Assembly: GCF_023698535.1 (NCBI RefSeq)
Contig: NZ_JALJCL010000022.1
Coordinates: 1 to 40,144 of the forward strand
Source of the DNA: Halorientalis regularis
Lineage (GTDB): Archaea > Halobacteriota > Halobacteria > Halobacteriales > Haloarculaceae
Reading direction: 5' to 3'
DNA length: 40,144 bases
The notes under the pieces were generated by a model, which ran no database searches, was not told the origin of the DNA, and saw only the letters and a program-made list of their open reading frames with translations. Shown here piece by piece: positions 5,386 through 39,441 of this stretch; positions within the stretch are counted from its first letter, which is position 1, and every line of letters starts with the position of its first letter. The translations under genes were made by a program, and so were the position numbers.

Positions 5386-7463
5386 ATGGCAAAAAGCCAG
5401 TCAACAAACGTCCCGCTAGACACCAAAGACGACCAGCTCCCAGTAGCCCCCAACCAACCACAGACCAGCCTTATATCGAAATTAAACCCACCGACACACC
5501 GATCGATCCCGACACGGTCGCTTGCGGGATGGACATCCTCCTGACGGCGCTCCAAGAAGCCAGCCAGACCGGCCTCCGACACACGCTCACGGGATCGGTC
5601 AAACGACCACGCGTCGAATGGTTGCTGGTCAGGGACGGCCGACCGGACGCCCAGATCAGATATCTGGTCGGGTCGGAGTACACGGACTTCCACCCGGACA
5701 TCGAACACGTACTCCGGACGGCACTCCCCAACACCTACGAACTCCGGGGGGTCGAGTGGCACCCTCGACAGGTCCACGAACTGCTCCCGGTCGCACCCGA
5801 CAATGACTGCCATCCGCATCCGGCGATCACGCCGGCCCATCCCTACGTGGCCGGCGTCGAGTATCGCGGCCACGCGAAGCGGCGACCCGACTGGCAGGCA
5901 CCGCTCGCCACGTTCGAGACCATCGTCGACGACGGCCAATCCACCCGCCGCTATAGCGACCGGACCCGTCGCGAGTCGCGCCGCGTGCCACTGGCAACGC
6001 TGATCCAGACGATGCGCGACGCCGACATGTCGGTCGTCTACCAGGCGATCTGTCGACCGTTCCGCGACTGGACGACCGAGCAGCAGTCCTATCTCCAGGA
6101 CCTCCAGGAAGGCAATCAGTGTCTGCTGGACGCGCTGTTCCCCGCACGCGCGAGCAGAAACGAGCCTACCAACCGTCGCCGGAGGAACAGGCCCGCATCG
6201 ACGCGATCAGCAGCCTTGACCCGGCGCGGTCGCTGGTGCTCTCGGCACGGTCGGTCGTCCTCACGCGGAGTGATCCCATCGGCGCGGACCGGATCGCCCG
6301 CGAACTGACCAGTGCGTTCGGGCACGTCGGGAGCCAGTTTCACGAGGTGCGTGGCCACCTCCAGACCGACGACGAACTCCACCCCTGTGACCCGCAGCCG
6401 CCTGGTTCGCAGATCTATCGGGACCACTGTGATCGGGTCCTCTACCCGGCCAGCTACATGCGTCTCACATCGAAACTCCCGACCGTCCCGGTAACCAGTC
6501 GTGGGATCGTCGTCGGCCCGGACGAACTCCCGAACTTCTGTCTGCTGGACGGCGACGGACTCACACCGGACGGGAAACGTACCCTCGGGACCCGGCCACG
6601 CGAACGGACCGGCGTCCCGCTACCAGCCCCCGACGTGCTCGCCCGCTACACCGGCCCAGGGATGGCTCTGGGGATGCCACTGACCCACGACCGACAACCG
6701 TACGGACGGGACCTCTCACTCCCGCCGGCGTATCAGGACCGGCACGTCTTCGTCGGTGGCAACACGGGCGCTGGTAAATCCATCCTCACCGAGAACGCCA
6801 TACTCACGAACGTCAAGGCGACCGCGGGGCCGGACATCCTCATCGACTCGAAGGGCGGTGGCACCGCCGAGGAGTACCTGCGGGCCCACTACGCCCGCTA
6901 CGGCGACCTCGACGACGTCCTCTACTTCGACTGTACGAAGGTGCTGCCGGCGCTGTCCTTTTTCGACATCCGCCCGCTGCTCGACGCGGACGTCCCCCGG
7001 ACCGAAGCGTCGGCCCGGGTAGCCGGCCAGCACGAGGAGATTCTCGAGGGACTCCTCGGTGCAGAGCGCTACGGACGAGCCGCCGACTCGGTGAAGGCCA
7101 TCCGCAACCACGTCAGGGCACTGTTCGATCCCGTCCACGGCGACGACGTGTTCGGCCACGACCATCTCTACGCGACGCTGAGTCGGACGATGGACATGGA
7201 AGCCCCACCCGCGGTCACCGACGATGGCCTCGACGAGTACTTCGAGAGTCTCGTCGAACGGGACCGGGAAATCTTCATGAAGGTACTGAGTGGGGCTGTG
7301 GGCCGTGTCGACACCATCGCAACCGACGGGCGACTCTCGACGATGTTCGATCACACGCCCGCGGACGGCGCGGCCACGTTCGACTTCGCGGACCTGCTCG
7401 ACGAGGATCGAGTGATCGTCTTCGACTTCGGCGGCATGGAGGACCGGGTAAACCACCCCACGT
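5386..7463 (+). pseudogene. HerA/TraG-type ATPase gene, two frameshifts and truncated 3' end
   Basis: This is a paralogue of the intact ATPase gene at 8342-12037, readable only in three frames. The first frame starts at the ATG at 5386 (MAKSQSTNVPL). A shift near 5450-5465 moves to a second frame (from TDQPYIEIKPTD). A second shift near 6140 moves to a third (TREQKRAYQPSPEEQ), which runs to 7543. Matching landmarks include FRDWTTEQQ, TSRGIVVGPDELP, Walker A GGNTGAGKS, the PDILIDSKGGG segment, ALSFFDIR and VIVFDFGG. The similarity stops at 7463, exactly where a MITE-like repeat begins, so the Walker B region and everything C-terminal are lost. The last residues before the stop are encoded by the repeat. 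It was probably a DNA-pumping or conjugation ATPase and is now non-functional. Confidence 0.8.
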
Positions 7464-7573
7464 ATAGTAGAATCTGGAAGTCTTTGCGGGGGTGTCTGCC
7501 GAAGATAGCGTGTCTCGTTGGTTCTCCGAGATCTGCTGAGTGATGTGAGTAGATACTTCTGGAGATTACTATA
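7463..7573. mobile_element. Putative MITE, about 110 bp, imperfect terminal inverted repeats
   Basis: The left end reads tatagtagaatctggaagt and the reverse complement of the right end reads tatagtaatctccagaagt. Most of about 20 positions match, allowing small gaps. It has no coding capacity. It interrupts the first HerA-like gene, which shows no recognisable continuation on the far side, so an adjacent deletion is likely. No clear target duplication could be seen. Confidence 0.5.
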
Positions 7574-8341: not shown

Positions 8342-11300
8342 ATGACAGACGACACGCCGCCACTCCCCCAGAACTGGAGTCCAGAGACAGACCAGTACCT
8401 TCGGGTCGAACCCACGATGACAGCGCTTGACCCGAACGATATCGCCAGACAAACAGCCACGTTCACTGATTTACTGGCGGATAACGACGACGGGCTGCTC
8501 ACGAAACTAACCAAGACGGTCACCACGGACAACGAACCATCTTATATCGAATGTCGCATCGTCGCCCCGGGCGCCGAAACCACGCCCACACCACTGAACT
8601 ATTACTTCACGATCAGTGGCGCGGAACACCGCCTGCAAGCCCTCGAAAACACACTTCGAAGTCTCTTCCCCGCGGAATATGCCATCACCTCTGTCGAGAG
8701 ACCAGTAGCCAGCGCCGGCGTCCTCACACAGGGCTCGGCGGGCCCGGTACCCGAGTACACCGCCGGCGTCGAATACTGTAGTGTCACAACCCGCCGTCAC
8801 AACTGGCAGATGTCACTGCTGCCCGATGATTCCCAGCCCTCCGCTGCGCAACCATCACCCACACCGGCCGACCGCGTCAGATCGCTTGGCCTAGGCACCG
8901 ACGAAACGGGCCCACTGGCGCTGTTGCTCAGGACAATGGTCACCACACGCCTGCCGGTCATCTACCAGCTCCTGATAACGCCATTCCGGGACTGGCGACA
9001 GACCAAACGAAACCGGATTCACGATATCGATATCGCCCAGGATCGCGTCCTGGCGAAATTCCTCGGCACCGATTACGAGCCTGGCGAGCGCGATCTCACA
9101 ACCGAAGAGCAAACCCGCAGACATGCGATTGACGTTCGCAACGCGGCTGCGTCGTATCTCGTCAACGCTCGGGTGGCCATCCCGGTCGACAGCGCCTCCC
9201 AGGAAGCCGCTGATGGCGTCGCGTCCGATCTCGAATCGGCGTTTGCTCACCTGGGGAGTGATTATCACTGGCTTGCCGGGCGGCGGCGCTGTGATAATGA
9301 TGGGGGGAACAAACAGCCCGGGCGGACACTGTTCCGGCGACTCCGGGACCGCACCCATATCGACCCGGAGTTCACGGCCTCGCACAACTGGCCGACCTGG
9401 CGTGACAACACCAGCCGTGGCATCATCGCCGACGCCGAAGAACTGCCGGGGCTGTTCGCAATCGAGGGAGGGTCGGCACCGCCGCGGGTCGAACGCGGCC
9501 TCGAAACGACGCCACCAGCACAGACTCCACTTACGCTCCCGTCCACATCGACCCTCGATCAGTTCCGCCAGCCCGGGTTGGCGCTTGGCTATCCGATCGA
9601 TAGCGACCACCAGCGACAGGAGCCACACATTTCGGTGCCGCCACGCTTCCAGACGAGACACATCAGTTGGGTCGGGCAGACCGGCTCGGGGAAATCGACG
9701 GCTCTGAGCAACGCATTACTGGCAAACCGGACCGCGACGGCCGGCCCGGAGATCCTCATCGACCCGAAAGGCGGCCGGATGGCGACAGAGCTGTGCCAGT
9801 CGCTGTACGCTCAGACTGGCTCACTCGACGATGTCTACTATTTTGATCTGGCCGAGTGGTTGCCCGCCCAGTCGTTTTTCGACATCCGCGACGAGGTGGC
9901 TGCGGGGGTCCAACGATCCACAGCCATCGAAGACCGGGTTGGCCACTTCGAGGCGATCCTCCGCCAACTCATGGGGCCCGAGCAGTACGATGCAAAGCTT
10001 GCACCGAAGGCGATCCGTAGCGGGCTGCGAGCGCTGTATGACCCGCTCCATGGCGATGAGGTCCCGACGGTCCGGTCGCTCTACGAGACGCTCCGAACGC
10101 TCCAGGACAACAAGACGCCCCCGCCAGTCGAGAGCGAGGCACTCGAACGGTCGTTCGCGTCGCTGGCCGCCAAGGACGACGAGGTCTTCCAGTCGGCGAT
10201 CGGGGCCGCGCTTACCCGCATCGAGGCGATTACCAACCGGCCGCGGCTCCGCCGGCTGTTCAACGTTGATCCCACAGTCGAAGAAACCCCGCAGTTCGAT
10301 TTCAGTGCGTTCCTCGACGAGGACGTGACGATCATCCTCGACATCGGTCGGCTCCGCGAGTCGGTCCAGCGGGCGATGGTGCTGATCGTACTCTCCCAGC
10401 TCTGGACGGCGCTGCGACGCCGCGGCCGGCGGCGCGGCGGAGAGTCGCTCCCACTGGTCAACGTCTACCTCGAGGAAGCCGGGAACGTGGCCGGCAGCGA
10501 AATCCTCGATGCATTGCTCTCGGAGGGCCGGGAGTTCCAGGTCAGCATGACCCTCGCGATGCAATTCCCCCAGCAACTGGCCGATACCGACACCCGGGCC
10601 ACGACGGCCGGCGGTGATGGGGCAACCACCTATGATGAAGTCCTCAACAACGTCGGCACGATCGTCACAGGGCAGGTCGGCCACGACCGCAAACTCGCCG
10701 AACGGCTCGCAACCGACGAGATCGAAAGCGAGAAGATGGCTGCTCGCCTGCGCCAGCTGTCGGCCGGCCAGTGGCTCGTGTCACTACCCGACGAACTATT
10801 CGAGCAGGCATCCAGACCGTTCCACATCGAGTCACTGCCACTGCCGGATGGCCATCCCGACGCCACCGTATCGACCCCGGCTGGATTTCAGGCAGCCTTC
10901 GACGAGCGCGTGGCACACACCCGATCAACCCATGCGGTGACCGTCGCCGACGAGCCAGCCACGGCACCAGAAACAGAGACCGACGGAGCTACCGACGACG
11001 CCCGGTCCCACCCAGGTATCAACGTGTTGGTACGGACGACGCGGCTCCCCGGGGCCGTCACCTACGACCCCGAGCAACACGCCATCCAGTGTGCCCGCTG
11101 TGAGCGGCGGTATAACCCGACGAGTACGGGAATGCGGCGGGCGTTGCGCTGCAGTGGCGCCCTTGAGACGGTCGATCGGAATGATATCCCGATCTGTGAC
11201 CTGTACCTGAACAGGAGTGCCGACGAGATTGCGGCGTTGGACTGGAGTCGGGTGCAACTGGCGTTTCTCCAGGCCGTCTATGACGCCCAGCAGCGGCGCT

Positions 11301-12037
11301 TTGCACCACACGAGTACGACATCGTGTGGGATTCGATGCTCCGGCTCAAGGAGTATCTCGATATCGACCAGGCTGCGATCGACGAGCTTCTCGATGCGGA
11401 GTTGCTCCGCCACGACGGCGACCACCCCCATCGGTTGTACAGCCTCTCGGAAGCGGGACGGGAACTCATCGCGGAGAAACCACGCAGTGGGCTTGAGTTC
11501 GGCCACGAGACTGGCGATCTCGGCGAGTCGAGTCTGCACACTCTCATGAACGAAGTTCTGCGACGCTGGATCGTCCAGAACTACAAACAGGATGATACAT
11601 CGCCAGTCGAGACCGTCCACACGTATTATGAGGTACAGGAGGGTGAACTCGCCGCCGCCGCGTTCATGGACGATACCGGCGTGCCAGCCGACGCTGACAG
11701 TATCACGTTCAGACGCCTCGATGTGGTCGGACTCGATGCTGACGGCAGTATCGTCGTGACCGGTGAAGCCGAGCGGATTCACGGTGATAAATACGAGGCG
11801 ATTCCCGACGACTTCGACACGATGGCGGCCTGTGAGCCCGAACAAGCGATCTGGGTCGTCCCGAGACAGTCAGACGGTGCGGAGGTCCTCGAAGGCCTCA
11901 ACGAACCCAGTGATGGCCGACCCCGTGTCGAGACGACCTACAGCACGAACAGCCCACCCCGAAAGTACCAGGTCGACACAGCCGGGCTGACTGACATCTA
12001 TACGGTGTCGAAGTTGCTTGATGATCTCGAGGACTGA
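8342..12037 (+). CDS. Large HerA/TraG-type ATPase fused to zinc ribbon and nuclease-like C-terminal domain
   Basis: A 1,231-aa protein. Residues about 1-400 form an N-terminal region of the kind found before HerA/VirD4-class pumps. Residues about 440-800 form the ATPase: Walker A GQTGSGKST (445-453), the strand PEILIDPKGG, and Walker B VNVYLEEAGN (706-715, with the acidic pair at 711-712), followed by the sensor-like SMTLAMQFPQQL. A cysteine ribbon starting CARC (917-920) comes next, then a winged-helix-like stretch (about 960-1040, FAPHEYDIV and HRLYSLSEAGREL). The tail has an LDVVGLD strand (Asp 1127) and GEAE (Glu 1142 and 1144), resembling the D...ExE/K core of PD-(D/E)XK folds. It likely pumps or processes DNA, as in conjugation or defence. 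The ATPase call is firm, the nuclease-like tail is inference, and no relaxase is seen nearby. Confidence 0.85.
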   Translation: MTDDTPPLPQNWSPETDQYLRVEPTMTALDPNDIARQTATFTDLLADNDDGLLTKLTKTVTTDNEPSYIECRIVAPGAETTPTPLNYYFTISGAEHRLQALENTLRSLFPAEYAITSVERPVASAGVLTQGSAGPVPEYTAGVEYCSVTTRRHNWQMSLLPDDSQPSAAQPSPTPADRVRSLGLGTDETGPLALLLRTMVTTRLPVIYQLLITPFRDWRQTKRNRIHDIDIAQDRVLAKFLGTDYEPGERDLTTEEQTRRHAIDVRNAAASYLVNARVAIPVDSASQEAADGVASDLESAFAHLGSDYHWLAGRRRCDNDGGNKQPGRTLFRRLRDRTHIDPEFTASHNWPTWRDNTSRGIIADAEELPGLFAIEGGSAPPRVERGLETTPPAQTPLTLPSTSTLDQFRQPGLALGYPIDSDHQRQEPHISVPPRFQTRHISWVGQTGSGKSTALSNALLANRTATAGPEILIDPKGGRMATELCQSLYAQTGSLDDVYYFDLAEWLPAQSFFDIRDEVAAGVQRSTAIEDRVGHFEAILRQLMGPEQYDAKLAPKAIRSGLRALYDPLHGDEVPTVRSLYETLRTLQDNKTPPPVESEALERSFASLAAKDDEVFQSAIGAALTRIEAITNRPRLRRLFNVDPTVEETPQFDFSAFLDEDVTIILDIGRLRESVQRAMVLIVLSQLWTALRRRGRRRGGESLPLVNVYLEEAGNVAGSEILDALLSEGREFQVSMTLAMQFPQQLADTDTRATTAGGDGATTYDEVLNNVGTIVTGQVGHDRKLAERLATDEIESEKMAARLRQLSAGQWLVSLPDELFEQASRPFHIESLPLPDGHPDATVSTPAGFQAAFDERVAHTRSTHAVTVADEPATAPETETDGATDDARSHPGINVLVRTTRLPGAVTYDPEQHAIQCARCERRYNPTSTGMRRALRCSGALETVDRNDIPICDLYLNRSADEIAALDWSRVQLAFLQAVYDAQQRRFAPHEYDIVWDSMLRLKEYLDIDQAAIDELLDAELLRHDGDHPHRLYSLSEAGRELIAEKPRSGLEFGHETGDLGESSLHTLMNEVLRRWIVQNYKQDDTSPVETVHTYYEVQEGELAAAAFMDDTGVPADADSITFRRLDVVGLDADGSIVVTGEAERIHGDKYEAIPDDFDTMAACEPEQAIWVVPRQSDGAEVLEGLNEPSDGRPRVETTYSTNSPPRKYQVDTAGLTDIYTVSKLLDDLED

Positions 12038-13935: not shown

Positions 13936-13965
13936 TTAAATATGTGTAGACTCTACACACAATTG
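13936..13965 (+). promoter_or_regulatory. Promoter and perfect palindromic operator of the toxin-antitoxin operon
   Basis: A TATA box (ttaaatat, 13936-13943) lies about 26 nt before the ATG at 13966, the normal distance for a leaderless haloarchaeal transcript. Between the box and the start is tgtgtagactctacaca (13943-13959), a perfect 8-bp inverted repeat around one central base. Ribbon-helix-helix antitoxins commonly bind such palindromes to repress their own operon, so this is a strong candidate autoregulatory operator. Confidence 0.65.
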
Positions 13966-14361
13966 ATGGCCGGAGAGAAAACCCGCGTCGATTTCAATGC
14001 CCCGAAGTCCCTCGTCGAGCGTGCCGATAGCGTCGTTGAAATCCTCGATATCTCTCGCACCCGCCTCCTCATCGATGCCCTCGAGGACGAGCTCGAAGAA
14101 CTGGCAAACGACGAGGAGTTCCGCCGGCGACTGAGCGACGCCTACTACGATGACCGCGTTGGCTACGATACCGTCGAGGCAATCCTGGGGCGGGAAGAGG
14201 CGATGCGGTTGAAACTTCTCCGGGAGTCGATGGACCGGACACCTGCCACCCCCAAACTCGAGGACGACCTCCCGAGTGATGATGACTTCTACGACGGCGA
14301 GATTCCCGAATGGACGGGTTCGAACGCGCCTGACGCATCGGATGGCGAGTCACGCACCTGA
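13966..14361 (+). CDS. Ribbon-helix-helix (CopG-like) antitoxin
   Basis: A 131-aa protein starting MAGEKTRVDF at the ATG at 13966. An in-frame ATG at 13942 overlaps the TATA/operator region and is rejected. Residues about 4-45 read as a beta-strand (TRVDFNAPKSLVERAD) plus two helices (VVEILDISRTRLLIDALEDELEELA), the ribbon-helix-helix pattern. The acidic, disordered C-terminus (DDLPSDDDFYDGEIPEW) is the part expected to embrace and neutralise the toxin. It is followed after 2 nt by the PIN-domain gene, the usual antitoxin-first order of type II modules. It probably also represses the operon through the palindrome just upstream. Confidence 0.75.
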   Translation: MAGEKTRVDFNAPKSLVERADSVVEILDISRTRLLIDALEDELEELANDEEFRRRLSDAYYDDRVGYDTVEAILGREEAMRLKLLRESMDRTPATPKLEDDLPSDDDFYDGEIPEWTGSNAPDASDGESRT

Positions 14362-14363
14362 CG

Positions 14364-14924
14364 ATGTCGGAGCGCGCCGTGGCTGTCGTCGACACGAATG
14401 TGCTCTTGAATCTTGCGACACCGGTCGTTGACGGGCGAACACAGGCACCTACTGGCGCGGATCCACTCAAAGCACTCCTCACCGCGTACGACGTCCATAC
14501 ACCCGCGAGCGTCCTTGGCGAGATCACCGACGCGACAGGAAGTGACGATCTCCTCGCAGCAGCCGCCGATCTCGTGCTCCAAGCAACGCATCATCTGAGG
14601 ACGCACAACGTCGACGAGCGGGCCGACGAACCACCCGACTACGGGCTTGATCGCGGCGAATCCGATTGTATCTGGTTGGCCAACGAATTGGAGGCAGACC
14701 TCTTCATCACCGATGAGTTCAATACGACGAACTATCTGTTCGTCGCCCTCGCACTCGACGACCGGAATACCCTCTTCACGACACCGCATATCCTTTGCAC
14801 GCTGGCGACCCACGAGAGCATCCCCGATGGATACGTCAACGCAGTGCTCACCTACTACGTGGAAACCAAAGGGTGGGATACCCAATATGTGGCACAATTG
14901 CGGGAGCTGTATCTCTGCGAGTAA
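14364..14924 (+). CDS. PIN-domain ribonuclease toxin (VapC-like)
   Basis: A 186-aa protein with the acidic quartet of PIN nucleases: Asp10 in VVDTNVLLN, Glu53 in VLGEITD, Asp101 in the LDRGESD motif, and Asp117 in FITDEFNT. These residues coordinate Mg2+/Mn2+ for RNA cleavage. All are intact, so the toxin could be active. It is somewhat longer than classical VapC (about 130 aa), with a C-terminal extension of about 50 residues. It is the second gene of a tight operon with the ribbon-helix-helix antitoxin. The likely target (tRNA or rRNA) cannot be inferred. Confidence 0.8.
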   Translation: MSERAVAVVDTNVLLNLATPVVDGRTQAPTGADPLKALLTAYDVHTPASVLGEITDATGSDDLLAAAADLVLQATHHLRTHNVDERADEPPDYGLDRGESDCIWLANELEADLFITDEFNTTNYLFVALALDDRNTLFTTPHILCTLATHESIPDGYVNAVLTYYVETKGWDTQYVAQLRELYLCE

Positions 14925-16653: not shown

Positions 16654-17721
16654 GAGCGTGTCATAGAATCCGTTCCATAGCGTGAGGTTCTCTCAACGGG
16701 GATCGTCTCCTCGCTCGTAGTTGGTGATTGCAACGACGAGTCGGAGACACAGTGACAGGAACATTTCTGTTCGTGCGTGGACGCGGCTTCGGACGCGGAC
16801 GTGCCCGAGGCCGCAGTCCTTGACTGCGTCATTGGTTCGTTCAACTCCCGTCCGGTCATTGTACGTCTCGTCCAAGATGGACTGTTTCATCTGAACGTCC
16901 TCGCTGTGTTCCGTGATGCGGTCTTTGACCCTGTACTCGATGTCTTTCGGGTCATCAGTGTTTCGCGGATTGTATGGAGCGATTGGCACGACCCCTGCGG
17001 CCAGCAGGTGGTCGTGCCAGTCAAGCGTGTCGTAGGCGCTGTCTCCAAGCATCCGACCGGTGTATCGACGGCGAGCGCGTCACGCGTGACGCGCATCGCC
17101 GTCTCTTGATCTGCTTGCTTGGTCTGTGTGAACTCCGCTGCAATCGCGATCTTAGCGCCGGTCGAGACAATCGTACAGCCGAAGCCGTAGTAGTATTCTT
17201 CGGCTGTGGGGTCGTAGTTCCACGAGGCAGCGTCGTTGTACTGAGTCGCTCGACGTGGGTCGAATCGATAGAGTACGTGGAGTCGAGCAGGCCACGGACG
17301 GCGGCCTGCTCGACGAGTCTGTCGAAGACATCGTCGATAACGTGTTCGAGGTCGGTGAGAAACCGGTCAACCGTGTCTCTGGATGGCGGTTTGTCGAGTC
17401 CACAGTAGTACCAGACAAGGCCGTTCTGAAGTTCTCGTGTAACCGGACGCGTGCCGTAGACATCCTCGTAGTAGCAGTGCAGAAAGCTGCGAAAGAGGTC
17501 TGGTGGCTCGTGAACTCGTGTTCGCCCCTCGAAGCGGGGGCGAACACGTCGTACTCTAGGAGAAACTCGAACTCAAGATGGTTGAACAGCGGTACTGTCT
17601 CGGTAGCCGCCGCATTCAAGAATTTGTCTACCGAAGCCACGTCTTGCAGGGCGTTGGTACTGTTGGGCACAGTTTCCAAACCCTGCGGCCTCCCTTGGGA
17701 GGGTTTCTATGACACGCTCGT
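16654..17721 (-). mobile_element. IS5-like insertion sequence, copy 1 (about 1.07 kb)
   Basis: The left end gagcgtgtcatagaatcc matches the reverse complement of the right end (gagcgtgtcatagaaacc) with one mismatch. A 3-bp direct repeat gta flanks both ends (16651-16653 and 17722-17724), as expected for some IS5-family groups, though three bases could match by chance. The transposase inside is frameshifted. The element is a diverged relative of the one at 18623-19927. Confidence 0.7.
16693..17679 (-). pseudogene. IS5-family transposase of copy 1, multiple frameshifts
   Basis: Reading starts METVPNSTNALQDVASVDKF and follows the copy-2 protein to about DVFAPASRGEHE, where a shift occurs. The middle is readable only in other frames. 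A further one-base loss precedes LGDSAYDTLDWHDH, after which the C-terminal 119 residues are open (with RTGVERTNDAVKDCG and RLVVAITNYERGD). The landmarks of a DDE transposase (second Asp in GDSAYD, Glu in GVERTN) survive, but the gene cannot make a full protein. Calling it dead rests on at least two shifts relative to copy 2. Confidence 0.75.
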
Positions 17722-18645: not shown

Positions 18646-19871
18646 TCACACTGTGATCACGGTACTTCCCGGATTGTCTCCGCGTTCGTAGTTGGTGATT
18701 ACGACGACGAGGCGCAGGCACAGGGCAAAAAACACCTCCGCTCGTGCGTGGACGCAGCCTCGAGCGAACGCACGCGCGAGGCCGCAGTCTTTCACTGATT
18801 CGTTGGTTCGTTCGACTCCTGTCCGGCGGTTGTATGTCTCATCCAACGTGGACTGCTTCAGCTGAACGTCCATTCGTCTTTACCTAATACTCAGAGTAAT
18901 ACTTGACCGCGTCGATTTGAGAGTGGATCTCGTTAGAACACGACTGCTACGGGACGAAAAGACGGTTTCCAAAGGTTCTGTATCGGCTACTTTCAGCTGC
19001 AGGAGCGTTTCAGTCGTTAGATTTCTTCATCTACTACTATTGAACATAATTATCTGGTGAGATACTACTGCTGGTCTTAGCTAAAGACGAATGGCTGAAC
19101 GTCCTCGCTGTGTTCGTTGATGCGGTCTTTGACCCTGTACTTGATTTCTTTCGGATCGTCGGTGTTTCGTGCGTTATACGGAGCGACTGGCACGACACCT
19201 GCGGCCAACAGGTAGTCGTGCCAGTCGAGTGTGTCGTAGGCGCTGTCACCGACCATCCACAGCGGTTGGGCGACGGCGAGCGCGTCACGGGTGACGTGCA
19301 TCGCCGTCTCCTTTGGCGCTTGCTTACTCTCTGTGAATTCCGCTGCAATTGTGATCTTTTGCCCGGTTGAGACGATCGTGCAACCGTAGCCGTAGTAGTA
19401 CTTGTCGTCGGTTGGATCGTAGCACTTCGACGCGTCTTGATCGGCGGGCATCGCCCTCACGTCGCTTGAATCGATGCAATAGGTCAAGTCGAGCAGGCCA
19501 CGCCGGGCGGCCTGCTCGACGAGTCGGTCAAAGACTTCGTCAACGACATATTCGAGGTCAGTGAGAAAGCAATCGACCGCGTTTCGCGACGGCGGCCGAT
19601 CGAAGCCACAGCTAAGCCAAACGACCGTGTTCCGAAGTTCTCGCACAACGGAACGAATGCCGTAGATGTCGTGGTAGTAGCAATGGAGCAAGCCACCCAT
19701 CAGCTCTGGTGGTTCGTGTTCTCGTGTTCGCCCTGTCTGCGCCGGGGCGAACACGTCGAACTCTTCGAGAAACTTGAAGGAGAGATGCTCAAACACCGCT
19801 AGCGTCTCGGTTTCCGCGACATTGAAGAACGACTCTACCGAAGGATCATCTTGCAGGGCCGCTGAACTCAT
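18646..19871 (-). pseudogene. IS5-family transposase of copy 2, split by a MITE
   Basis: The 5' part (from 19871) reads MSSAALQDDPSVESFF and carries the first Asp in TYCIDSSDV and the second in WMVGDSAYDTLD. It runs to ...NEHSEDVQ at the MITE. The 3' part (18873-18646) resumes DVQLKQSTLDETYN with the catalytic Glu in RTGVERTNESVKD and ends RLVVVITNYERGDNPG. Without the MITE and one target copy the frame is continuous (HSEDVQLKQ), as in copy 1 (HSEDVQMKQ). All three catalytic acids are present, so this copy was recently intact and was inactivated by the MITE. Confidence 0.8.
18871..19093. mobile_element. MITE, 223 bp, with 12-bp inverted ends and 10-bp target duplication
   Basis: The left end cattcgtcttta matches the reverse complement of the right end (taaagacgaatg) perfectly over 12 bases. 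The direct repeat gctgaacgtc lies immediately outside on both sides (18861-18870 and 19094-19103), perfect over 10 bp. There is no coding capacity and the interior is AT-rich. A 10-bp duplication would fit mobilisation by an IS4/ISH8-type transposase, but that source is inference. Confidence 0.85.
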
Positions 19872-31665: not shown

Positions 31666-32241
31666 TCAGGCTTCAGTGATGTGGTCGTAGATCTGCTCAG
31701 TAGTCTGGATCGAGCGGTACCGGAGTCGATTCCGCACGTCGTAGAGTGTGTTGCCGGTCTCGTGGTTTATCATCCAGTAGGCGACGCCGTGCCGGAGTGC
31801 GTGGGGCGACACGTCGGCTGGATCGCCTTGCGTCCCGCCGATCTCGTACGGCCGCACGTCGGCTTCGGCGGCGGCCTTCTCGACGACGTTCCGGACACCC
31901 TGGGTGGTGATCCGATCGTTCGAGCATGAGGGAAAGAGTGCATCGGGATTTTTCCAGGGCGTGTTCAGGTACGTGGTGAGCGCGTGTGTGGTATCGCTCG
32001 TGAGCGCGAGCGTCTTTGGGGTCGGAGAATTATCGTTGGGGTAGTCCTCCTGGATCTCGGTCGTCAGGTAGAGTTTGGCGTGGTGCCCGCGGAGGTACTC
32101 GACGTCGACATTGACCAGCTCCCCGACCCGGAGGTCGGCATCATACAGCAGCGCAATCATCGTGTCGTTCCGCTCGGCGAGGTAGTCCGCGCTGGTCTGG
32201 AAGACGGCTGTTCGCATCTGGTCGACCTGCTCCGGTGTCAC
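31666..32241 (-). CDS. Short tyrosine recombinase (XerC/D-like integrase)
   Basis: A 191-aa catalytic-domain-only integrase beginning at a GTG (TPEQVDQMRTAVF). Catalytic positions are Arg38 in DADLRVGELV, His147 and Arg150 in SPHALRHGVAY, and the nucleophile Tyr185 in TEQIYDHITE. The usual second His/Trp position, HRSIQTTE in relatives as I recall them, is Tyr175 here (LRYRSIQTTE), which may weaken but not necessarily abolish activity. Short haloarchaeal integrases of this type without an N-terminal SAM-like domain occur on plasmids and integrated elements. An N-terminal truncation is also possible. No tRNA or obvious att site was seen beside it. Confidence 0.8.
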   Translation of the reverse strand: MTPEQVDQMRTAVFQTSADYLAERNDTMIALLYDADLRVGELVNVDVEYLRGHHAKLYLTTEIQEDYPNDNSPTPKTLALTSDTTHALTTYLNTPWKNPDALFPSCSNDRITTQGVRNVVEKAAAEADVRPYEIGGTQGDPADVSPHALRHGVAYWMINHETGNTLYDVRNRLRYRSIQTTEQIYDHITEA

Positions 32242-32978: not shown

Positions 32979-33151
32979 GCGGTGGTGCAGAAGTATTTAC
33001 AGACCCTCTACTGCCATATCTCGATTTGTAATGTCGCTCGACTGCTTTTCAGGAATCGAGAACAAACCTTCGCTAATCAACCAACCACTGATGAACTCTC
33101 TCCAACTGAAATCCGTCGATTTAGACCTTGAGACGTATTCTGCACCACCGC
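32979..33151. mobile_element. Putative MITE or IS relic, about 173 bp
   Basis: The left end gcggtggtgcagaagtatt and the reverse complement of the right end (gcggtggtgcagaatacgt) share a perfect 14-base core. The interior encodes a short run starting MSLDCFSGIENKPSL that looks like a transposase N-terminus joined straight to the right end, suggesting an internally deleted insertion sequence. It ends 54 bp before the surface-protein start codon, so it may contribute to that promoter. Confidence 0.55.
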
Positions 33152-33159
33152 GTATATCA

Positions 33160-33205
33160 TGTGTTCAGACACATTTATGTATTTGTGCACAATATTGTGT
33201 GTTGT
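33160..33205 (+). promoter_or_regulatory. Promoter of the surface-protein/RND operon with two palindromes
   Basis: The TATA-like tttatgta (33174-33181) lies about 28 nt before the ATG at 33206, right for a leaderless transcript. An inverted repeat tgtgt-tcag-acaca (33160-33173) sits just upstream of it. A perfect palindrome cacaatattgtg (33188-33199) sits between it and the start codon. Both positions suit a repressor or activator dimer, but the regulator is unknown. Confidence 0.5.
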
Positions 33206-34870
33206 ATGCAATATAGGGCTCGTCGGCGAATCGTAGCAGGTGCATTGGTGTTGTTTTTAGTTGGAGCGTCTCTGACAGTGGTCCCAGCATCGGTTGCAGC
33301 AACCCAGTATGACGACTTCTCAGAACCGGAGTTGGAACCAACAGTACAATCAGGAAATACGCTGTCACCTGGCGAGACAGCAACCGTTACTGTGGCAGTG
33401 CAGAACCAACAAGGGGGGAATATGAATTTTGATCGATCGATCGGTGATCTTTCTCAGGTGGTTCAGACACACCAAATTAGGCTTGGGTCGGCAGGTACAA
33501 CGACTGCAACGGCCAAATCTGGGAATGCACCACTCGAGGTGAAATCTGGCCAGAAAGGCCTTGGGACGATTCCTGCAGGCGGAAGTAATCAAGCAGCGAT
33601 TACCGTCGAAGTTGCTGAAGATGCTGCACCTGGAATGTATCGCCTGCCGGTGACGATGACGTACACGTACGTCGACCAGATTATTGTTAATGACGATGGG
33701 TACTACGTACTCCGTGATACGGAGACGATTACAGGCCATGTGACTGTCCAGATCGAAGAGTCGGTTCGTCTCGACATCGTCGAAGCGACCGGTGAGGAAC
33801 TTTACGATAGTGCCGATGGCCGTATCGCGGTAACGGTCAAAAACGGCGGGACGGAAGTCGCCCGGAACACTGAACTCAGTATGGTTGAGTCCTCCCAGTT
33901 TAGACCCCAAAGCAACGGGGTCGCACTGGGCCGTCTCGCTCCAGGCGAGACGGCGACGGCGACCTTCCAGACTACGGTGACCGGTGCCGAAGAAGCAGGG
34001 ACGTACGGCGTTGATTTCCGATTACGCTACGAAGACGAGAACGACAATCCGCGGCAGTCGGCAGTTCGGACGGCCAACGTTTCGGTCACTGCCGGTCCCC
34101 AATTTGATCTTACGACATCGACATCGGCGCTGTATGTCGACTCGACTGGCATCGTTGAATTGTCAGTGACGAACACAGGCAGTCAGCCAGCGACAGATGC
34201 TCGGGCCCATTTACACTCAATGGAACCATTTGCGTTACTTTCGAGCGGTTCGAGCCTCGGAACGCTTGAACCGGGCGAGTCTTCGACGGCGCGATTCAAA
34301 CTCGAAGTACCTGATCGGGGGCTTGATGGAGCGTACCCACTGTCGGTGACCATTGTCCACGATGATCTGTACGGTAACACTATTGAGAGCGAAACGATGT
34401 CGGCTGATGTGTCAGTCGGTCCTGAGCGATCATTTGAGGTGGTGAATACGGCACAACTCCCAGCAGGCTCGACTCAGACTATTGAGCTTACCGTGCGAAA
34501 TACTGGTAAGACATCGCTGAACGATAGCGAAGTCCGCATCAACACGAACTCGCCATTTGAGACAGACGACGACACAGCTTATGTTGGGACACTCGCGCCG
34601 GGCGAGACGGCGACTGTCTCATTTACTGTCAGTGTCGACAGTGCCGCAACAACAAAGACATACTCAATTGATACATCAATCAAGCATGATAATGCGTTCG
34701 GTGAGAGTGTCGTCACCGACATCGAAACTGCACCTGTTCACGTCACTGAATCTGAAAGTGGGCCATTTGGTATTGGTATGACCGGGCTGGCAGCTCTCGT
34801 ACTTCTCCCACTGTTGGTACTCATCGGCTTTGTGTACCGAACTGACCTCAGTGATCATATCCTGCCCTGA
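33206..34870 (+). CDS. Secreted COG1361-like (S-layer-domain) surface protein
   Basis: About 554 aa from the ATG at 33206. The N-terminal signal peptide MQYRARRRIVAGALVLFLVGASLTVVPASVAA ends in an Ala-x-Ala-type site. The body contains at least four CARDB/NEW3-type beta-sandwich repeats, each with an LxPGEtaT turn (TLSPGETATVTV, LAPGETATATF, LEPGESSTARF, LAPGETATVSF) and an NTG turn. A C-terminal transmembrane helix (MTGLAALVLLPLLVLIGFVY) with a short basic tail anchors it, leaving the repeats outside. The stop is 2 nt before the RND-exporter ATG, so the two genes form an operon. COG1361-like proteins beside RND exporters are seen in other haloarchaea and may act as the periplasm-equivalent partner. 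Confidence 0.85.
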   Translation: MQYRARRRIVAGALVLFLVGASLTVVPASVAATQYDDFSEPELEPTVQSGNTLSPGETATVTVAVQNQQGGNMNFDRSIGDLSQVVQTHQIRLGSAGTTTATAKSGNAPLEVKSGQKGLGTIPAGGSNQAAITVEVAEDAAPGMYRLPVTMTYTYVDQIIVNDDGYYVLRDTETITGHVTVQIEESVRLDIVEATGEELYDSADGRIAVTVKNGGTEVARNTELSMVESSQFRPQSNGVALGRLAPGETATATFQTTVTGAEEAGTYGVDFRLRYEDENDNPRQSAVRTANVSVTAGPQFDLTTSTSALYVDSTGIVELSVTNTGSQPATDARAHLHSMEPFALLSSGSSLGTLEPGESSTARFKLEVPDRGLDGAYPLSVTIVHDDLYGNTIESETMSADVSVGPERSFEVVNTAQLPAGSTQTIELTVRNTGKTSLNDSEVRINTNSPFETDDDTAYVGTLAPGETATVSFTVSVDSAATTKTYSIDTSIKHDNAFGESVVTDIETAPVHVTESESGPFGIGMTGLAALVLLPLLVLIGFVYRTDLSDHILP

Positions 34871-34872
34871 CC

Positions 34873-37239
34873 ATGCCAACAACGCTCGGACGCGCCGTCC
34901 GCGACGCTCTTGAAGCGACAGGTAAGTACGCTGCAGCCCACCAGCGTCAGGTGTTTGCTGTCGTACTTGTGACGGCGCTTGTTTCACTGGGCGTCGGTCT
35001 TAGCGGCGTCCAGATGAGCATGGGGATGACTCTGTACATTGACGACGACTCGCAAACGGCCGACAACTGGGAAACGGTTAAAGAAGACTTCGGCGTCGGC
35101 AACAACGTATTCGTCGTTGTCAAGTCGGACCGGCTTTACGATCCCGAAACGATCCGCGCTATCGACCGCCTCGACCATCGCTACCGCACAAACGTCGACG
35201 GTATCACGCGGGTCACCTCGATTGCTGATATTGTCAGATCGGGTAACGACGGCGAAATTCCGGAGACTGAAGCCGGCGTACGTCGATCCATCGATCAAGT
35301 ACGGGAGCAGAGCGAAGCAGGTGCAGCGATGGTTGCGCGTATAGTGCCAGAGAGCGGGACGACAATCGTCCTTGCGACGTACGGAAGCGTCGATCGGTTC
35401 GACCGGGGAAATTTTCTCCCACAACGTGGCTCTGATATTGTCTATAGCGAAGTGCGCGGCGAGACGGCGCTGGCGTCGCTTCCACCAGGCATGTCGACGA
35501 CGATCACTGGCCAACCGGTGTTTGAGAATGCCGCGTTCGGGTTGATGCTCCCAGAGATGATTGCGCTGTTCGCTGGCGCATTTACGCTTATTTTCGGCGT
35601 GATCTACGTCGTCATGCGCGGCAAAGTTGAGCAGGGTTGGCACGTTCTGTTACCGCTTGGAACCGCGCTGACAGCACTCGTCTATATGATGGGCGCGATG
35701 GGGGTGTTGGGGTACGATTTCAACGCCATCATGCTCGGTGTCATGCCCATCGCGCTCGGCCTCGGCATCGACTACGGTCTCCAGATCCACTCGCGGTACG
35801 TTGAGGAACGCCGCGCTGGCGTTACCCCCCTCGATGCGGCGGGCGTGGCTGCACAGACCACCGGGCGCGCATTACTCATCGCCATGGGGACAACCGTCGT
35901 CGGCCTCGGTTCACTGCTTGTGTCCGCGGTACCTCCGGTCAGGCAGTTTGGTGTTACGAGTGCTATTGCCGTCTTCGCGGCGATGGTGCTGTCAGTGACT
36001 CTTCTGCCCGCTCTCCTCGTCCGCTATGATACGGGGAATCATGAGTCGCTTGAAGCTACCGGCGAAACGGCCCGCAGCGATGATTGGTTAGAAGCCGGAG
36101 TCTATCGCTTCACGCAAGTCGTGACCGGAGGCAAGCCCCTGTTGACACTCCTGGTCGCATTGTTACTCGTCACCGGTGGTGCATATGCCTACCCGCAGGT
36201 TGAGCCACGGCAGGAGATGATGGACTTCTGGCCGCAGAATCTCGATGCGAAAAACGATATGGACCGCTTGTCCGACACTGTCGACAGCCCAAAGGTCGTG
36301 TACGTAATGGTCGAGACTGACCAAGCGTACACTTCCAAGACGTTCCGCGATGTCGCGACTTATCAACGCCTGATGCTGGCGAACGATCAGGTCAACGCGG
36401 TCCAAAGTCCCGCATCCGCAATACGGCTCCGAAACGATGGGCGAATACCGGATGACAACGCAGAATTGGACCGACTCATTTCGAGGCAGAGTACCGAGGT
36501 GGGAGTAACGAGCATCCAGCCACCTGCCGAGAATCCGAGTACAATGCTCTTGACGTTCTACGTTGATGATATCGAAGGAGAATCCGTCCGGACGCTCATC
36601 TCGGAGTTTGAGTCCAACGCTGACGCGACGCTTACTACCGCCGAGGAATTGAGTGTAACGGGTAAACCGGTCCTCAACCGGAACGTTATCGAAAACGTCA
36701 CTGCCGGCTTGACACCCATGACGCTACTATCGTTTTCATTGGGGCTTATATTGCTCTCACTGGCGTTTCTCTCTTGGCGTATCGCCGCTGCACTTATTGC
36801 CAGCGTGGCCGGGAGCGCTGCCCTGTTGGTGACTGGCTGGATGCATCTCCTCGGAATCCCGTGGAACCCACTGACAATCACGATGTCATCGCTCACGCTT
36901 GGTATCGGTGTCGACTACGGTATCCACGTGTTCGAACGCTACGAGTACGAGATCGAGACAAACGGTCAAACAGCGGTTGGTGCGGCCGCGACAGCCGTCT
37001 CGAAACTCTCTCGTCCGATTGTCGGGTCGAGTTTCACTACTATCTTCGGCTTTGGTGTTCTAATACTCTCGCGATTTCCCGTTCTCGCGAACTTCGGCAC
37101 GACAACGGTTCTCGCTATTGGTATGTCGCTCGTAACGGCTTTCACCGTCTTACCGGCGGTACTCAGCCTCGGACCATCGCTTGGTATTTCAGCTACAGGG
37201 GCTACTGCCAACAGACCGGATAGCACAGGAGGTGATTAA
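34873..37239 (+). CDS. RND-superfamily exporter (MMPL/HAE2-like)
   Basis: A 788-aa protein with the duplicated RND architecture. TM1 is near 24-46 and a large extracellular loop spans about 47-205. Five helices follow, including the LGLGIDYGLQIHSRY motif near 295. A second TM1-like helix lies near 425-445 and a second loop to about 610. Five more helices carry LGIGVDYGIHVFERY near 676. The paired GxDYG motifs with their Asp residues form the proton- or cation-relay helices of the family. It probably exports lipids, hydrophobic compounds or small molecules using the ion gradient. No MFP or outer-membrane partner exists in archaea, so the surface protein encoded just upstream (2-nt gap) is the likely partner. 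Confidence 0.88.
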   Translation: MPTTLGRAVRDALEATGKYAAAHQRQVFAVVLVTALVSLGVGLSGVQMSMGMTLYIDDDSQTADNWETVKEDFGVGNNVFVVVKSDRLYDPETIRAIDRLDHRYRTNVDGITRVTSIADIVRSGNDGEIPETEAGVRRSIDQVREQSEAGAAMVARIVPESGTTIVLATYGSVDRFDRGNFLPQRGSDIVYSEVRGETALASLPPGMSTTITGQPVFENAAFGLMLPEMIALFAGAFTLIFGVIYVVMRGKVEQGWHVLLPLGTALTALVYMMGAMGVLGYDFNAIMLGVMPIALGLGIDYGLQIHSRYVEERRAGVTPLDAAGVAAQTTGRALLIAMGTTVVGLGSLLVSAVPPVRQFGVTSAIAVFAAMVLSVTLLPALLVRYDTGNHESLEATGETARSDDWLEAGVYRFTQVVTGGKPLLTLLVALLLVTGGAYAYPQVEPRQEMMDFWPQNLDAKNDMDRLSDTVDSPKVVYVMVETDQAYTSKTFRDVATYQRLMLANDQVNAVQSPASAIRLRNDGRIPDDNAELDRLISRQSTEVGVTSIQPPAENPSTMLLTFYVDDIEGESVRTLISEFESNADATLTTAEELSVTGKPVLNRNVIENVTAGLTPMTLLSFSLGLILLSLAFLSWRIAAALIASVAGSAALLVTGWMHLLGIPWNPLTITMSSLTLGIGVDYGIHVFERYEYEIETNGQTAVGAAATAVSKLSRPIVGSSFTTIFGFGVLILSRFPVLANFGTTTVLAIGMSLVTAFTVLPAVLSLGPSLGISATGATANRPDSTGGD

Positions 37240-38205: not shown

Positions 38206-38330
38206 GCCTCGGGGTCAAGCCCCGAGGCTTCCTGCTTCGATGACGCGCTTTGCAGACACCGTAGTGGTGTCCGTAGGGAGCGCAGTCTCCACAGACGTGT
38301 CTTCGGGCCATCCCAGCCCTAATTCAGAAA
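38206..38330 (-). ncRNA. Probable omega/reRNA scaffold overlapping the TnpB 3' end
   Basis: TnpB guide RNAs span the 3' part of tnpB and the right-end hairpin. Here the hairpin at 38206-38228 and the about 100 nt before it on the minus strand are the expected scaffold, with the guide continuing into flanking DNA below 38199. Inferred from family knowledge and hairpin position; the 5' boundary is arbitrary. Confidence 0.4.
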
Positions 38331-39441
38331 AACCGCGTTGCAGGACATTCATCGCCGCATTCGCGTCACGGTCACACTCAAACCCACACGCCGGGCAAGA
38401 GTGTTCCCGAACCCAGATGGGCTTCGCCGTCTCCACACAGCACGACGCACACTCTTTGGTTGTCCCTTCGGGTTCAACCTGCTTGACGTAACAGCCATAC
38501 AGGTCGGCCTTGTATTCGAGCAGGGTGATGAACTGCCGCCACGCCGCATCCTGCTTGTTGCGAGCGTTGTGCGAGTCTTTTAGCATCCCCTTCACGTTCA
38601 AGTCCTCGACGAATACGGCGTCGTACTCGCGGACCAACCACGTCGTTATCTTGTGCTGGTAGTCCAGAACCTTCTGACGGATGTGACGCTTGACCTTGGC
38701 AACCTGCTTCCGTTGTTGTTCGTAGTTGTTCGATTCCTTCTCCTTGCGAGACAACTTGCGTTGTTCGCGGCGAAGACACTCGTACTCGTCTTCGAGGTCG
38801 AGCCAGTCCACCGTCTTGCCATCAGACGCGTGGATGTAGTTCAGGATGCCGAGGTCAATCCCGACACTGTTGCTCGCGTCGAGCGTGTTTGCGTCAGGTT
38901 TCTCGGGCAGGTCGGCCTCGTCGGTTTCGAGGGCGAAGGAGACGAACCATTCTCCGGTTGTCTCTTTCTTGATTGTGACTTCCTTGATGTCGGCGTTATC
39001 GGGAATTTCGCGGTGGTAGCGGATGGGGATGTCACCTATTTTGCAGAGCCAGAGTGTCGCGCGTCGGCCACTCGTGTTTTTGAGTTCGAAGCCAGACTGC
39101 GAAAACGTCATACTCTGGAACTCCTTCGGCGACTTCCACTTAAGTTTCCCAACCTTGTTCCCGTTCTCCTTCTGGTCTTTCAAGTTCGAGAGGTTGTCGT
39201 AGAACCGTGTGACGGTTCGTTGCAAGGCCTTCGGGTTGACCTCTGAGAAGATGGAAAACTCGTCTTTCCAATCGGGAAGTCGGTAGTGGTGTTTGTACGC
39301 GGAGCCGATATTGTCGGCATCCACGTTCTCGTATTCGTACCGAGTATAGTTGTACGCTTGGCGATGAATGTCGATGTGACGTTCCAGTTCAGCCGCTACC
39401 TGTTGTGTCGGGTACGCGGGGTAGCGGTGACTGTACTCCAT
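38215..39441 (-). CDS. tnpB: TnpB RNA-guided endonuclease
   Basis: A 408-aa protein starting MEYSHRYPAYPTQQ. The RuvC catalytic acids are all present: Asp196 in SVGIDLGIL, Glu279 in VFVEDLNVKGM and Asp359 in DRDANAAMN. The zinc finger has Cys331 and Cys334 (CASC) and Cys349 and Cys352 (CPAC). Length and motifs match intact haloarchaeal TnpB, the ancestor type of Cas12, which cuts DNA guided by an RNA transcribed across the element's right end. The stop codon (38215-38217) lies in the loop of the right-end hairpin, so the coding region overlaps the expected guide-RNA scaffold. It is unusually well preserved compared with the other TnpB copies here. Confidence 0.9.
   Translation of the reverse strand: MEYSHRYPAYPTQQVAAELERHIDIHRQAYNYTRYEYENVDADNIGSAYKHHYRLPDWKDEFSIFSEVNPKALQRTVTRFYDNLSNLKDQKENGNKVGKLKWKSPKEFQSMTFSQSGFELKNTSGRRATLWLCKIGDIPIRYHREIPDNADIKEVTIKKETTGEWFVSFALETDEADLPEKPDANTLDASNSVGIDLGILNYIHASDGKTVDWLDLEDEYECLRREQRKLSRKEKESNNYEQQRKQVAKVKRHIRQKVLDYQHKITTWLVREYDAVFVEDLNVKGMLKDSHNARNKQDAAWRQFITLLEYKADLYGCYVKQVEPEGTTKECASCCVETAKPIWVREHSCPACGFECDRDANAAMNVLQRGFSELGLGWPEDTSVETALPTDTTTVSAKRVIEAGSLGA

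Follow-up and report, generated by a model that had tools for sequence, protein, structure and literature searches.

The window analysed here is a stretch of 40,144 nucleotides from the haloarchaeon Halorientalis regularis. At 8342..12037 on its plus strand lies a complete gene that begins with ATG, contains no internal stops and encodes 1,231 amino acids, joining a coupling-protein-like ATPase to a zinc ribbon, a winged helix and a PD-(D/E)XK-like domain. Its GC content by codon position (67/47/74%) and the acidic excess of its product (15.7% D+E vs 9.7% K+R) are those of a typical coding haloarchaeal gene. The same genome holds a second full-length copy of the family on contig C45, which is 42% identical to the window protein. 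The first-pass annotation had also pointed to a paralogue nearby, and a relative is indeed present at 5433..7489 on the plus strand; it is, however, a decayed fragment that has a frameshift near 6140, ends after the ATPase and lacks zinc ribbon, winged helix and nuclease. A gene of a congener (G098) shares about 72% identity with it, and we therefore regard the fragment as the remnant of a different copy and not as a working paralogue. Neither VirB4 nor VirB6 is encoded in the window.

Downstream of the gene, a two-gene pair at 13942..14924 on the plus strand recurs near relatives (clusters c3 and c4, 9 loci each); it has no Pfam matches, and its sequence suggests a putative VapBC-like antitoxin and PIN toxin. 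Two diverged repeat copies at 16700-17652 and 18671-19859 share segments of 74-87% identity and, as the second contains a DDE-transposase reading frame (19077-19871), probably represent an insertion sequence. The minus strand carries a short, probably truncated tyrosine recombinase of 191 aa (Phage_integrase) at 31666-32241 and an intact gene for a 408-aa TnpB-like protein (OrfB_IS605, Cas12f1-like TNB) at 38215-39441. At 33128-37239 on the plus strand, a gene for an NPCBM/CARDB-domain protein adjoins one for an MMPL-family transporter, and the two probably form one operon.

Domain architecture and conservation

Alignments, Pfam, AlphaFold and Foldseek agree with the original view of a single polypeptide in which a HerA/TraG-superfamily motor is followed by zinc ribbon, winged helix and nuclease-like tail. 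The ATPase core of the VirD4/TraG/HerA superfamily spans residues ~411-835 (9572..10846, plus strand; Pfam, Foldseek). In an alignment with 33 homologues, which are 36-43% identical to the window protein, we located the Walker A motif GQTGSGKS at residues 445-452 (9674..9697), the Walker B strand with D667 (10319..10351) and a second acidic strand with E711/E712 (10463..10480), all on the plus strand. G448, G450 and K451 are invariant, and D667, E711 and E712 are invariant or nearly so; the places first assigned to Walker A, the Walker B aspartate, the cysteines C917, C920 and C937, and D1127 and E1142 all fall among the invariant columns. Pfam recognised TrwB_AAD_bind in 30, DUF87 in 27 and TraG-D_C in 20 of the 33 family members. 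The AlphaFold model of residues 1-865 (pLDDT 87) matched TrwK/VirB4, TrwB (TM by target 0.65), HerA and DndH-C in Foldseek.

The N-terminal region (residues ~1-410; 8342..9571, plus strand) is built of tandem alpha/beta domains. Foldseek alignments with TrwK/VirB4 extend through this region, but an identification with the VirB4 N-terminal domain was rejected, as hhalign against haloarchaeal VirB4 matched the ATPase part only. A hydrophobicity scan of the window protein revealed no stretch over threshold, and hence no apparent transmembrane segment, including the N-terminal anchor that is common, though not universal, in coupling proteins. The protein thus shares with VirD4/TraG/TrwB coupling proteins the RecA-like ATPase with TrwB/TraG-type Walker A and B motifs and the TrwB fold, and differs from them in its lack of detected N-terminal membrane helices, its large N-terminal alpha/beta region and the fused zinc ribbon, winged helix and nuclease-like domain.

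The tail begins with the zinc-ribbon cysteines C917, C920, C937 and C952 (11090..11197, plus strand), the first three of which are invariant within the close branch of the family. As the window protein has S938 (nt 11153-11155) where most relatives have cysteine, the fourth zinc ligand is here perhaps C952. The VirB4-linked plasmid branch lacks the zinc-ribbon cysteines, which are therefore not essential to the common function of the family. A winged helix follows at residues ~970-1042 (11249..11467, plus strand), as judged from AlphaFold secondary structure and from Foldseek matches to the MarR and RIO2 wHTH domains.

The PD-(D/E)XK-like domain occupies residues ~1060-1231 (11519..12034, plus strand). 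In the AlphaFold model of residues 866-1231 (pLDDT 88, pTM 0.85), it forms an alpha-beta-beta-beta-alpha-beta core (residues 1064-1173) in which strand 2 carries D1127 and strand 3 carries E1142, so that the LDVVGLD...GEAE motif had been placed correctly. A fold search of the tail returned restriction-endonuclease-like PD-(D/E)XK enzymes in the ten best Foldseek ranks, among them VC1899 (E 3e-4), SduA, Can2 and Card1, whose TM-scores are low (0.17-0.27) because several linked domains were aligned together. H1066, D1127, E1142, E1144, D1157 and D1159 are invariant in 25 of 25 sequences from three branches, including one of only 30% identity, and E1062 is kept in 24 of these. Mean column identity is higher in the tail than in residues 1-865 (52% vs 43%). 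In place of the lysine of the canonical E-x-K the family has a glutamate (E1142-x-E1144), which leaves the strand-3 motif within the E-x-(K/E) pattern of the superfamily. Judged by the model, we are highly confident that the tail adopts the PD-(D/E)XK fold. The window copy has T1160 (nt 11819-11821) where most relatives have lysine; together with S938, this substitution may influence how this copy binds zinc or whether its nuclease is active.

Spread of the family and its conjugative neighbourhoods

Homologues were found at E 1e-20 in 155 of 293 genomes sampled from the order Halobacteriales. A search of 393 genomes of the phylum with a C-terminal profile yielded no members outside this order, and a virus origin was rejected, as phage records and viral contigs contained no match to the family. 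Three branches can be distinguished: a close one of ~40% identity, which is full-length and mostly chromosomal, a plasmid branch of ~30% identity, and a short branch of ~35% identity, whose proteins of 806-830 aa lack the N-terminal region. Short-branch members such as L081:8489-10909 and L082:8507-10999 retain the zinc ribbon, the winged helix and the nuclease signature; one short-branch genome, G158, has neither a VirB4 match nor TrbL_3.

On haloarchaeal plasmids, the family gene is embedded in the order VirB4, family protein, DNA primase and primase-associated protein, and in pHcu_235 the reading frames of the VirB4/family/primase block overlap by 8 and 4 nt. Ahead of this block, the plasmid operon encodes a TrbL_3/VirB6-like protein, other membrane proteins and a small membrane protein that resembles pilins. 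In the close branch the immediate neighbours vary, with an OB-fold protein, an ArdC-like protein, Orc1, TFIIB and toxin-antitoxin pairs recurring, and the VirB4/TrbL_3 block typically lies at a distance of 12-60 kb, in many cases on the other strand. VirB4 was encoded within 60 kb of 22 of 38 testable close-branch copies, compared with an approximate expectation of 1.7 that takes genome size as 3.6 Mb; for some close-branch genes, VirB4 is missing from the same contig. TrbL_3 (VirB6) was present in 37 of 40 genomes picked for carrying the family and in 4 of 40 without it (Fisher P 2e-14), and in two of these four exceptions a remote family homologue lies within ~7 kb of TrbL_3.

The association with VirB4 and VirB6 that characterises coupling proteins is thus found for the family as a whole, and we consider it highly likely that its members are coupling ATPases of conjugative elements. 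The initial impression that this is not an obvious standard conjugation gene applies to the unusual fusion, but not to the neighbourhood, which with VirB4, TrbL/VirB6, primase, OB-fold protein, ArdC and TFIIB is that of a conjugation gene. VirB4 and VirD4/TraG homologues have been described in haloarchaeal integrated elements, namely in a 53-kb region of Haloferax volcanii (PMC2841640) and in fusexin-carrying elements (PMC9259645). The VirD4/TraG proteins of these elements very probably belong to the same family; the relevant passages of the two papers mention neither a nuclease domain nor a relaxase role for them.

The H. regularis genome departs from this pattern: TrbL_3 is absent, and contig C8 carries the sole VirB4-like gene, a remote one. 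The window gene is an orphan in this genome, as VirB6 and a matching VirB4 are absent from the assembly. Because of this, the window copy may be inactive or a remnant. Alternatively, by analogy with CloDF13, it could serve a mobilizable element that borrows the channel of another element; CloDF13 has its own coupling protein and a MOBC relaxase, but no channel.

The relaxase question and the MOBC-like signature

Earlier studies report no relaxase in the conjugative elements of archaea (PMC9905601, PMC12857230, PMC6563490), and the relaxases of archaeal conjugation have been suggested to be of unknown kind (PMC3158045). Our survey fits this picture and the early remark that no relaxase was in view, as 29 of 30 genomes with the family had no match to the classical relaxase family PF03432. 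A separate known relaxase within the elements was rejected, because in the single positive genome (G157) the PF03432 matches lie on other contigs beside a different VirB4. These partial matches (G157:C5:7186-7353 and G157:C7:38279-38446) are within ~1.5 kb of a different 1,086-aa VirB4-like gene, and G157 may therefore harbour a second haloarchaeal transfer system, possibly with a classical relaxase. Rep-Arvir (DUF7845), an archaeal replication-nicking family of 2026 reported in ICEs, was likewise rejected as the relaxase; although 29 of 40 genomes encode it, for 23 of 24 elements it lies at a distance of over 100 kb or on a different contig. Replic_Relax (PF13814) gave no matches over the cut-off. 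Homologues lying always in complete conjugation operons, with both VirB4 and a relaxase, would have spoken for an ordinary conjugation gene; VirB4 does accompany most homologues, whereas a relaxase does not, and the C-terminal fold looks like PD-(D/E)XK, so that neither point refutes the earlier proposal as it was worded.

MOBC relaxases belong to the PD-(D/E)XK superfamily, and one of them, TraX, has an N-terminal winged helix (PMC12857230). Intact MobC sequences show H114, D148 and E161-x-E163-R164, and their N-terminal part is winged-helix-like, with a MarR regulator as best PDB sequence match. The haloarchaeal family resembles CloDF13 MobC and pAD1 TraX in that a winged helix precedes the PD-(D/E)XK-like domain and in the succession of a histidine in the preceding helix, an aspartate and E-x-E-R. 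Moreover, the mobC gene of a MOBC plasmid directly follows the coupling-protein gene and overlaps its end, an order that equals the domain order within the haloarchaeal chain. Unlike in MOBC, the nuclease-like domain of the family is fused to the pump; the D-to-E spacing is 15 compared with 13, and in the plasmid branch the arginine of E-x-E-R is leucine. An hhalign profile comparison with one MobC was not significant (probability 0.2%), and direct homology to Replic_Relax had no significant support either; what we describe for MOBC is therefore a resemblance of architecture and active site that falls short of proving common descent, and the signature may have arisen by convergence.

Of the plasmids matching the family, 149/149 were typed as non-mobilizable, while the same typing called 870 of 876 MobC plasmids mobilizable or conjugative. 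It also lists CloDF13 as non-mobilizable, and the old reference record of this plasmid has mobC split across frames (L185:6300-7700). Around the family genes we found no transfer origin or conserved repeat. Origin-like repeats were rejected as a general feature, as a five-copy 56-bp array is confined to L096 and its near-twin L121. There, five direct repeats, mostly 56 bp apart, lie upstream of the homologue (L096:9410-9664), forming a possible binding site, and were not seen near the other relatives checked.

Proposed working and alternative readings

Because PF03432 is absent from nearly all genomes tested and Rep-Arvir lies outside the elements, our preferred reading is that of a coupling protein into which a relaxase-like nuclease is built. 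Overall, we lean towards the gene encoding a type IV coupling-protein-like pump that serves conjugative or integrative elements of haloarchaea and brings its own MOBC-like nicking domain, whereas for a relaxase-like role as such we would put the chances just short of even. We infer that the protein may have nuclease activity, recognise a transfer origin and couple nicking to pumping. The winged helix, joined in the close branch by the zinc ribbon, would recognise the origin, the PD-(D/E)XK-like domain would nick one strand there, and a hexameric VirD4/TraG-type ATPase would pull the DNA and feed it to the VirB4/VirB6 (TrbL_3) channel. This sits less easily with the short branch, whose members are missing the N-terminal region and one of whose genomes has neither VirB4 nor TrbL_3, and with the glutamate in place of the lysine of E-x-K and the residues T1160 and S938 of the window copy.

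The same conjugative ATPase could also use its tail to process DNA ends before export or after import, leaving the origin uncut. HerA-NurA has been proposed to produce single-stranded DNA in archaeal conjugation (PMC9905601), and in Thermus, TdtA acts together with a NurA-like nuclease and a restriction enzyme of type IIG in the absence of a classical relaxase (PMC5365140), so that resection or trimming of double-stranded DNA, as proposed for the Ced/Ted systems and for TdtA with NurA, could serve as a model; the AddAB and MGME1 exonucleases among the weaker Foldseek matches of the tail are in line with this. These systems likewise pair an FtsK/HerA pump with a nuclease and lack a classical relaxase, but their nuclease is a separate NurA of RNase H fold, whereas that of the family is fused, PD-(D/E)XK-like and accompanied by a winged helix. 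As the domain order and the H...D...E-x-E-R signature fit MOBC relaxases, and a winged helix beside the nuclease suggests sequence recognition over end processing, we consider end processing unlikely. A non-catalytic tail, serving an ordinary coupling protein as a DNA-binding or structural module, appears more doubtful still. Many proteins of PD-(D/E)XK fold have lost activity, and the family has exchanged the lysine of E-x-K for glutamate; however, branches that share only 30% identity retain H1066, D1127, E1142 and E1144 without exception, and the E-x-E triad is also present in MOBC relaxases and in BamHI.

The first-pass annotation had further considered HerA-NurA-like resection or defence, a reading that does not agree with neighbourhoods that are those of conjugative elements. 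In favour of a HerA-type pump whose fused effector nuclease would destroy incoming DNA, defence systems that pair HerA with a nuclease exist, and the Foldseek matches of the tail include SduA (Shedu) and Can2/Card1. Among the defence models, only PADLOC mad8 scored notably (E 8e-10); its match falls on the P-loop region and is unspecific, since the same model also matches an ABC transporter in the window (E 2e-6). No recurrent defence partners or defence-island context were found in the family neighbourhoods, where the linkage is with VirB4, VirB6, primase, ArdC and the OB-fold protein; a defence system was therefore rejected, and an anti-plasmid function of this kind is very improbable.

No DNA-nicking enzyme has yet come to light for archaeal conjugation; as a pump with a predicted built-in cutting domain, the protein is a candidate for this part. 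More tentatively, we propose that the missing haloarchaeal, perhaps wider archaeal, relaxase could be a MOBC-like domain fused to a VirD4-type pump, so that one hexamer would recognise, nick and pump the DNA. Our literature search covered open-access papers, and an earlier description of the fusion may exist. A fused relaxase would, if true, explain why relaxase-based typing classes these plasmids as non-mobilizable. As more than half of the haloarchaeal genomes sampled carry the family, among them species of the tractable Haloferax, point mutants in the fused domain turn the question of the archaeal relaxase into a direct experiment.
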